Positions 46,184 to 48,289 of a stretch of DNA of 64,000 nucleotides are shown here, one piece after another. Made by a program: the position numbers and the translations under genes. The stretch spans positions 10,906,499 to 10,970,498 of the forward strand of contig NC_092565.1 of the NCBI RefSeq assembly GCF_037975245.1, given 5' to 3'. Under the pieces are notes generated by a model. The model ran no database searches. It was not told the DNA's origin and was given only the letters and a program-made list of their open reading frames with translations. Numbering within the stretch: position 1 is the stretch's first letter; every line of letters begins with the position of its first letter. This stretch comes from Apostichopus japonicus (taxonomy: Eukaryota > Echinodermata > Holothuroidea > Aspidochirotida > Stichopodidae).

Positions 46184-46559
46184 CTGAAATTTACCAAACA
46201 CTAAATACAGTATTTAATTGTAGAGTTCTGGACAGCCACTAAATTTTGAAACCTGGAGATCTTAACTAAACACAGCACTAGTAGCTCTGGACAGCCACTT
46301 AACTTTTAAACTTTGGAAATTTCAGTATCCTGCAAATTACGCCATTGTAGAAACAACTCAAGGGTGTGCACAGGTTCCCTCTCTCTCACTCCCTACAATG
46401 GCATTGTCTAGGCTAGGAGTTGGACTATCCAACTTATGACACATGTAGCGAATACATTGCAGTAGTTATGCCATAATTTATGCTTTCTATTCTAGGCCCT
46501 ATGCGATGATAATTAATTCTAGCCTTTGCTCATACGGTACTAGTAATGATACTACTTAC

Positions 46560-46754
46560 TTTTTTTTAAGGAAAAGTCGCCCAGGAAAGAACCTGGGCAC
46601 GAAAACCAAACTACCAAACGACTGATCCGCTCTCAGCCCCAGTCTCCTTGCATCAGGACTGTGACTGTGTGATCATCGTCAGGTGTGCATCACCATTCCC
46701 CTCGAAAGGGAACAGATACTACACATGATCTCAGCCAAAAGGCCTAGAAGCGAT
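46560..46754 (-). mobile_element. U2 snRNA-headed repeat unit 1
   Basis: Read on the minus strand, the first 45 bases or so nearly match the U2 snRNA 5' end (ATCGCTTCT, GGCCTTTTGGCT, GTGTAGTATCTGTTC). A non-U2 body of about 140 bases follows, ending in a perfect hairpin (GCCCAGG, loop, CCTGGGC), then CGACTTTTCCTT and eight A. A short AGTAGTATCA-like word flanks both ends, as a target duplication would. Best explained as a retroposed snRNA-headed SINE or a retroposed U2-like RNA. Confidence 0.7.
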
Positions 46755-46766
46755 GTGTGATACTAC

Positions 46767-46946
46767 TTTTTTTAAGGAAAAGTCGCCCAGGAAAGAACCT
46801 GGGCACGAAAACCAAACTACCAAACGACTGATCCGCTCTCAACCCCAGTCCCCTTGCATCGTGACTGTGACTGTGTGATCGTCAGGTGTGCATCACCATT
46901 CCCCTCGAAAGGGAACAGATACTACACATGATCTTAGCCAAAAGGC
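46767..46946 (-). mobile_element. U2 snRNA-headed repeat unit 2 (5' truncated)
   Basis: Same body, terminal hairpin and A-tail as unit 1, with about 95% identity by eye. The U2 head begins at GCCTTTTGGC, so roughly the first 11 bases are missing. Such 5' truncation is common in reverse-transcribed insertions. AGTAGTA words flank it. Confidence 0.7.
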
Positions 46947-46956
46947 TACTACTTAC

Positions 46957-47149
46957 TTTTCTTAAGGAAAAGTCGCCCAGGAAAGAACCTGGGCACGAAA
47001 ACCAAACTACCAGACAACTGATCCGCTCTCAGCCCCAGTCCCCTTGCACCAGAACTGTGACTGTGTGATCATCGTCGGGTGTGCATCACCATTCCCCTCG
47101 CAAGGGAACAGATACTACACATGATCTTAGCCAAAAGGCTGAGAAGCTA
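46957..47149 (-). mobile_element. U2 snRNA-headed repeat unit 3
   Basis: The head reads AGCTTCTCAGCCTTTTGGCT then AAGATCATGTGTAGTATCTG, the closest of the three to canonical U2. The body and GCCCAGG/CCTGGGC hairpin are as in the other units. The tail is CCTTAAGAAAA, and a TACTACT-type word (plus strand) lies at the junction with unit 2. Confidence 0.7.
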
Positions 47150-48289
47150 CAGCTTACTAGTTACAAGTTGACAGCTTGGAGGCTGGAGGTCTTCTGCTCT
47201 ATATTATCCTCTTGTACATTATCTCCAACATACATAACAAATTAACACTAACAGATACCAACACCCTATAACACAATCCTATTGGTAGGTGGAAGACCAC
47301 TGACCACTCCCACTAGGTCATTCCACATCTCACAAACATCTACACCTGAATAACATGGGATCACACCAGAGTATGTGCACCTGGGTACTCTCCAATGTAG
47401 ACCTGGCCACAAAAGCTCCAAACATAACTCAACCTACAGTGAAAACAATAGATAGCATACCAACAATGCCATAAATGGCTATCCTCAGTAGTGACCAGAA
47501 TAGTCTTATAAATGCCAGCAAGTAAAATAGTCTTGCCTAGGATAGGATAAACAAGCTAGGACCCTACAAAGGCTACAGTAAAGTATTAGTAAGTTCTAGT
47601 ACTCACGTAACACTAACAGCTAATTTGCCTAGGCGTTAGGTGGTGCAACAATAAACAGTATCATGACCTTAGGTTTGACAAGCTTGGCCAAAATTCTTAC
47701 TTCGTAAATGCATGGGGTACTGTCTCAACAATCTGACTTGTTATAGCCTCACCTGGGTACGGTTTATTTGATTCACTATTCTAAAAACAAGAACGATTCA
47801 GAATGTTTGCTACTAGTACTAAGTATAGTATTAGTAGTAGGCTAGTACTGGTAATAGTACTAGGCCTAGTACTAGTTCACTAGTATTAGAAATAAAGCTA
47901 AGGTAATACAGAGGTAGCTACCCTATCGCGCTGTCAAACGTTACTGCATATTTCATTACGACTTAAGACGAGTCTGAAAAAACACTGAGATTGGAAAAAT
48001 ATTGATGTGGCTCTTTCGTATAGCCTAAGATAAAACAAAAATATTACGTGGGAAAGCTCAACAAATTTGGTCCCGTCAGCTGATTATATTTAATTTTCCA
48101 AGATCTCCCGCGTAGACCGTGCGCTAGGTAGAGCAATGGAAGCCAAACATGCAAAAATTGTAGAATACGTGACTAATAATAATAGTAATAACAATAAAAT
48201 AATAATAAAAATAAATAAATGTATAACTTTTAATAAAACATAGTATGAAGTTCATATCGCGACAAGAATTAGTTGTCATATTGGATTAT
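47150..48289. other. Upstream region of FANCI; candidate promoter area, no confident gene
   Basis: It holds the candidate 28-nt exon. A slightly CpG-richer patch near 48040-48140 is the likeliest place for the FANCI promoter, which must lie upstream of the spliced leader acceptor at 45776. A short plus-strand ATG frame at 48136 runs into AAT repeats and is not supported as a gene. Confidence 0.35.
47753..47780 (-). CDS. Candidate 28-nt exon upstream of 46014-46183
   Basis: The acceptor is CTTGTTTTTAG and the donor CCCAG followed by GTGAGG, a strong match. It reads NSESNKPYP and leaves one base, which completes a codon with the next candidate exon. A second donor (GTAAGA) lies 46 bp further on. 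It could equally be an untranslated FANCI exon. Confidence 0.3.

Follow-up and report, generated by a model that had tools for sequence, protein, structure and literature searches.

Three tandem A-tailed repeats in the genome of the sea cucumber Apostichopus japonicus begin like the U2 spliceosomal RNA and then continue into unrelated sequence, which raises the question of what these units are and how they came by a U2 head. They lie in a stretch of 64,000 nucleotides (C5:10906499-10970498, contig NC_092565.1; here called the window) of a genome of 671,581,487 bases in 35 contigs. Contigs are labelled C and loci that were read individually are labelled L. A first-pass annotation, made from the sequence alone, had preferred a snRNA-headed SINE family and had named a divergent, retroposed U2-like RNA as the alternative. 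Here, we characterized the units in the window, their relatives across the genome and their relation to the U2 genes.

Three U2-headed units in the window

The observation held when the sequence was read directly and checked by script. Based on this analysis, the minus strand is organized as follows:

46954..47147 (-): SINE unit 1, with a head of U2 nt 4-45, body and tail CCTTAAGAAAAGTA
46947..46953 (-): junction word AGTAGTA between units 1 and 2, inferred to be a regenerated target or duplication by analogy with array L098, where the same 8-bp word flanks and separates the units
46764..46946 (-): SINE unit 2, 5' truncated at U2 nt 12, with body and tail CCTTAAAAAAAGTA
46755..46763 (-): junction GTATCACAC between units 2 and 3
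46557..46754 (-): SINE unit 3, with a complete U2 nt 1-45 head, body and tail CCTTAAAAAAAAGTA
46710..46754 (-): U2-derived head (nt 1-45) of unit 3, equal to U2 1-38 plus the 7-bp target duplication 39-45 seen in U2-embedded copies
46579..46598 (-): 3' hairpin GCCCAGG-TTCTTT-CCTGGGC of unit 3
46543..46556 (-): 3' flank AGTAGTATCATTAC, containing GTAGTATC, which equals U2 nt 33-40 of the U2 genes and is perhaps a chance U2-like target (inferred)

Compared with the genome's own U2 gene, nt 1-45 fall at 47150 (3 of 45 mismatches), 46957 (9 of 45, the 5' truncated unit) and 46754 (2 of 45). These are the only three places in the window, on both strands, with 14 or fewer mismatches. The Rfam U2 model calls units 1 and 3 above the gathering score of 46, at 48.3 and 48.7 bits, the latter over 46678-46754. 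The body of about 146 bp showed no similarity to U2 46-192, since its local score of 8.0 was reached or passed by 189 of 200 shuffles of the body. The GCCCAGG and CCTGGGC hairpin, the A tails and the truncation of unit 2 are as the first-pass annotation had described them, and AGTAGTA (TACTACT on the plus strand) stands at all three unit ends (46953-46947, 46767-46761 and 46556-46550). One boundary had to be corrected: each unit ends in (A)nGTA, so the last unit runs to 46557 and not 46560.

We also looked for the origin of the body. Comparison with the LINEs of the U2 array and with the window, an Rfam search of one young copy (L052) and comparison with U2 46-192 returned nothing beyond the body's own copies. 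At E up to 5, Rfam gave U2 for the head of L052 (E = 8.7e-10) and one sub-threshold CRISPR-repeat hit, but nothing for the body. No tRNA was found in the window using bacterial settings and A and B boxes were not scanned, so whether an internal Pol III promoter derived from tRNA, 7SL or 5S is present was not settled by these searches. The proposed Sm-site resemblance, GGTTTTCG, is a poor Sm site, and no support for a snRNP role was found beyond a stable fold, a composite of head and body folding better than all 200 shuffles (z = -3.9).

A genome-wide SINE family

The interpretation preferred in the first-pass annotation, a snRNA-headed SINE family, is supported. A genome search with the body had been proposed there as the way to tell a SINE from a snRNA gene, high copy number, variable flanks and target duplications being the marks of a SINE, and these were found. 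A whole-genome search with the trimer gave 51 scored matches from the 40 of 2,583 candidates that were scored. A 25-place tail pattern occurs exactly 473 times with 0 in the reversed control. Allowing up to 3 mismatches, a 29-mer tail occurs 2,121 times and a 29-mer head-body junction 1,639 times, again with 0 in the controls, although true U2 genes differ from the junction word at only 3 places and are likely counted in. The element is thus a family of roughly 2,000 copies of about 191 bp, and each of C1-C23 has at least one match in three of the searches taken together.

We read 79 loci, covering the first 84 of 100 listed places out of the 473 exact tail matches; this sample therefore comes from C1-C5 and favours well-kept tails. 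Of these, 71 were solitary, while the eight loci with more than one unit were left out of the duplication test. A common word of 7 or more between 5' and 3' flank was found in 45 of 71 solitary copies, against 59 of 1,420 shuffled pairs. 5' truncation was also observed. Among 92 five-prime flanks only five pairs were alike, namely four segmentally duplicated pairs and one short repeat shared by L129 and the window. The tail is mostly fixed and looks templated rather than poly(A), as 30 of 40 TTTTTCTT-type solitary copies have exactly five A, 27 of them followed by GTA. A second tail type, TTTTCCTT, with 7-9 A in 9 of 12, resembles the units of the window.

These features do not support the alternative of a divergent functional U2-like snRNA gene family that was retroposed. 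The preserved U2 5' domain and the stable fold would be in agreement with it, but copy number, target-site duplications and the absence of U2 upstream sequence in the flanks examined all speak against it, and true U2 genes (181.8-186.8 bits, 46 scored, compared with 48 bits for the units) form a separate set. We consider this reading very unlikely. Equally unlikely is repeated acquisition of the head by reverse-transcriptase template switching onto U2 snRNA, as in L1 chimeras with small RNAs (PMC13174262). Switching would scatter the junctions, whereas 61 of 71 solitary copies align through one shared junction, U2 nt 45 followed by CCC, and the same junction exists in genomic U2 genes at the known insertion bond.

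Tandem arrays were examined at multimer loci picked mainly from the best hits of the trimer search and not at random. L098 reads (CCTTTCCT-SINE) three times and then CCTTTCCT, and several other arrays repeat a duplication of their own. Units in L101, L103, L109 and L110 differ in truncation point or tail type, and the window units, which also differ in truncation, are no more alike (94.6-97.2%) than random solitary copies (mean 95.3%). This fits repeated insertion at a regenerated GTA/YC target (slashes in sequences mark the insertion bond). Arrays could instead arise by local DNA duplication, through unequal crossing-over between duplications. L051 and L045 are clearly such duplications, with units up to 100% alike, and L098, L105, L107 and L108 contain pairs of units 97-100% alike, above the between-array 95th percentile of 96.5%, so that duplication cannot be excluded there; a (duplication-SINE)n structure like L098 can come about either way. 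For the window trimer and arrays generally we regard local duplication as possible but unlikely. In L051 (C3:3634831-3636089) a SINE fragment starting from U2 nt 23 has become a 171-bp head-to-tail array of at least five nearly identical units, a satellite in the making. At C5:11042399-11066001, eight head-body junction hits lie about 3-4 kb apart, and the two stretches read (L115, L116) carry the same decayed SINE cluster, so a larger block seems tandemly repeated.

Copies inside U2 genes and their dispersed counterparts

The first-pass annotation had stated that its reading would fall if the body matched bona fide U2 genes of the same species. Such matches exist, but in an unexpected sense which it did not foresee: the body is not U2 sequence but is inserted inside U2 genes, which strengthens the SINE reading and suggests where the head comes from. 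True U2 genes form a 645-bp tandem array on C16, with four more marked on C15, where a SINE copy close to the young type lies on the opposite strand about 1.2 kb from a solitary U2 gene (L003, C15:6478680 region). A word from the 3' part of U2 marks 87 places, 83 of them in the C16 array. Of the 82 intervals, 53 are 645 bp, 5 are SINE-sized, 22 are LINE-sized or truncated-LINE-sized and 2 are 5,313 bp. We read 15 of the 29 departing intervals, the rest being inferred from spacing, 11 of them helped by LINE 3'-end matches. One of the two 5,313-bp intervals was read (L007, C16:31040250-31046420) and contains a different APE-type LINE in the U2 spacer, not in the gene. About a third of the marked U2 genes of the array (C16:30998978-31170205, L005-L018; 27 of 83 by spacing, 14 of these read) are interrupted by retroelements at the nt 38/39 site, with at least four LINE groups plus the SINE.

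In L008, L013, L014 and L015 the SINE body interrupts 6 of the 83 marked U2 genes, as 7 copies. The full-body junctions read U2 1-45, body, A5GTA and then U2 from nt 39, and one of the four full-body copies has a single base change at the junction (TGATCCC). The 45-nt head thus equals U2 1-38 plus a 7-bp duplication, TCTGTTC (39-45). Truncated copies show other duplications, about 14 bp in one L008 copy and 2 bp in L015. L015 holds two SINEs in tandem, a truncated second SINE sitting in front, and L013 holds a LINE next to a truncated SINE, both inside single U2 genes. Downstream of insertions of the U2-targeting LINEs Keno and Utopia, U2 resumes at the same place, nt 39 (PMC4640811).

A search with one embedded copy (C16:31132319-31132509; U2 1-45, body and A5GTA) found, besides itself, at least 13 dispersed copies identical over all 191 positions, on C4, C7, C9, C15, C16, C17 and C20; 40 of 2,738 candidates were scored, which makes this a lower bound. 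We read 20 dispersed copies from the matches of this search, and in embedded and young copies the head is identical to the genome's own U2. In the 13 identical copies the duplication (6-15 bp by exact-prefix match, some running into the head) abuts U2 nt 1 on one side and A5GTA on the other, and their 5' flanks are unrelated to one another. Overall, 18 of 20 have an exact-prefix duplication, none being found for L135 and L136. An exact 27-mer of 14 nt upstream plus U2 1-13 occurs at 81 places, all in C16 30.97-31.17 Mb, and is kept at all 6 SINE-bearing genes. As this word is of the C16 type only, diverged or C15-type upstream sequence would be missed. In addition, 400 bp upstream of one C16 and one C15 U2 gene match none of 92 dispersed 5' flanks. 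The dispersed copies therefore look like retrotransposed RNAs that began at the U2 start site, and the only copies found with U2 upstream sequence are those inside U2 genes.

Dispersed insertion sites share the core of the U2 site, GTGTAGTA/TCTG. In the broad sample the letters after GTA are biased to T, C and T (28, 18 and 22 of 46; p = 6e-5, 0.0015 and 0.02, not corrected for the positions looked at) and the base before the duplication is A in 18 of 20 mappable cases, that is A/TCT. For this analysis the segmental-duplicate partners L030, L037, L059 and L071 were left out of the solitary loci (L068 was already out), and 46 of the remaining 67 with a clean GTA end were used, 20 of them with a mappable duplication. 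The similarity is limited to about A/TCT, since positions -2 to -10 and +4 to +10 show no significant U2 preference (for example -3 G in 1 of 20), and the -1 A is confounded with the A of the tail. In the 20 young copies, the base after GTA is T or C in 20, the third base is T in 15 and the base before is A in 15 of 18 usable.

LINEs in the array occupy the same bond at 9 loci read, U2 resuming at nt 39 as described for Keno. The three families scanned have a zf-CCHC (zinc-knuckle) ORF1 and an ORF2 with APE endonuclease and reverse transcriptase (Pfam Exo_endo_phos and RVT_1), and for the one ORF2 compared with solved proteins (L010) the best solved relative is LINE-1 ORF2 protein (8uw3_A, E = 9.1e-74). 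Keno is a LINE of the Tx1 clade with an APE endonuclease, inserting before U2 nt 39; membership of our LINEs in its lineage was not examined by phylogeny. Utopia shares the 3' junction in U2, and occasional tandem insertion in U2 genes is reported for it (PMC4640811), but it has a restriction-like endonuclease. Three of four LINE groups end AAAGTA/TCTGTTC like the SINE, while one ends AAAGAAA/TCTGTTC. Beyond this short A-rich GTA end, no SINE/LINE similarity over background and no long shared tail was found.

A possible source of the U2 head

We consider it the best explanation, and hold it with reasonable confidence, that the units are copies of a non-autonomous retrotransposon without a promoter that we could recognize, which depends on host U2 snRNA genes. 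In this view, the U2 promoter makes a chimeric RNA (U2 1-45, body, A5GUA, then U2 39 onward), and a U2-specific APE-type LINE resident in the same array (Keno-like) reverse-transcribes it from the GUA/UCU boundary. At U2 genes the head would let the new copy join seamlessly and regain the promoter, while at other A/TCT-like sites the copy would land as a promoterless, U2-headed SINE. Because each copy ends in GTA next to a duplicated target, it would re-create a GTA/YC target at which later insertions can stack in tandem, as we think happened in the window. The SINE features, insertion at U2 38/39 with the U2 upstream sequence kept, the identity of an embedded copy with dispersed copies, the target bias and the tandem structure are demonstrated by our analysis, whereas transcription from the U2 promoter, priming on a read-through RNA, mobilization by the resident LINEs and seamless re-entry into U2 are inferred, no RNA data having been examined. 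The main weakness of the proposed partnership is that the three U2 LINE 3' ends tested match only C16 (13 of 13, 7 of 7 and 7 of 7) while the SINE is dispersed, so either trans-mobilization is sloppier or another LINE is the partner. Further, the window's own units are of the CCTT, longer-A tail type and not of the type found embedded.

Identity between embedded and dispersed copies is symmetric, and the embedded copies could be sinks. The element would then be an ordinary snRNA-headed SINE like crocodilian SINEU, with dispersed source copies, transcription arising by chance near some dispersed copies, and only on-target insertions in U2. The 2,121 tail matches against 7 embedded copies would be in line with this. 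Of the first 100 listed places of the youngest hairpin variants (125 in all, and seemingly concentrated on C17 at about 18-24 Mb, although density was not tested), 44 are CCCTTCGGG, which no embedded copy in this assembly has. On the other hand, 49 dispersed places are CCCTTAGGG and 3 are CCCCTCGGG, which do have embedded counterparts, while two embedded variants, CCCCTAGGG and TGATCCCTTAGGG, have no dispersed match among those 100. We regard this scenario as unlikely, since snRNA promoters are external and the dispersed flanks examined lack U2 upstream sequence. Moreover, a headed RNA landing in U2 as an ordinary SINE should leave a second head, which none of the 4 full-body embedded copies has (the other 3 are 5' truncated and say nothing), and the fixed A5GTA end fits the U2 site.

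SINEs with U1- or U2-derived heads are reported from crocodilians (SINEU; Kojima 2015, doi 10.1093/gbe/evv100). As in our case, a 5' head from a snRNA gene is joined to an unrelated body in a non-autonomous element, and the partner is reportedly a target-selective Tx1 LINE. Homology of the body to the crocodilian families was not examined. Here, the host is an echinoderm, the target is the U2 site and A/TCT sites rather than, as reported for SINEU, a Mariner family, and copies embedded in U2 genes are identical to dispersed copies; we do not know whether embedded copies were looked for in crocodilians. Non-autonomous R2-derived elements in rDNA (SIDEs of Drosophila) are, as proposed for the present element, promoterless and co-transcribed with their host RNA gene, but they derive from R2 and stay in rDNA, whereas the present element has an unrelated body and spreads genome-wide carrying a piece of the host gene. 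No sea cucumber or U2-embedded SINE was seen in the literature searched, which was limited to open papers and did not include Repbase (among those consulted: PMC4640811, PMC10344927, PMC7245038, PMC5753468, PMC7397244 and PMC13174262). The finding goes further than the first-pass annotation, in that it shows a plausible seat of the sources and an explanation of the head.

In conclusion, SINE heads are said to serve mainly as internal Pol III promoters (PMC7245038), but as snRNA promoters are external, a U2 head does not by itself explain how a SINE is transcribed. An embedded copy in a U2 gene that is identical to dispersed copies gives a concrete, testable answer, namely that the host gene is the promoter, a route by which a promoterless parasite can spread. 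It also suggests a target memory, the GTA tail, that favours tandem arrays. In practical terms, Rfam U2 fires on these heads, and as the A. japonicus assembly paper lists 996 splicing RNAs found with Rfam and INFERNAL and only 0.02% SINE (PMC10344927), we infer that part of that count may be this SINE. The furthest-reaching interpretation, which we judge somewhat more likely than not, is a retrotransposon without any promoter that lives inside host U2 snRNA genes, is transcribed as a U2-parasite chimera by the snRNA promoter, re-inserts seamlessly into U2 genes by homology of its borrowed head and seeds thousands of U2-headed dead copies elsewhere. If so, snRNA heads of SINEs in general, crocodilian SINEU included, may be footprints of sources inside snRNA genes rather than captured promoters.
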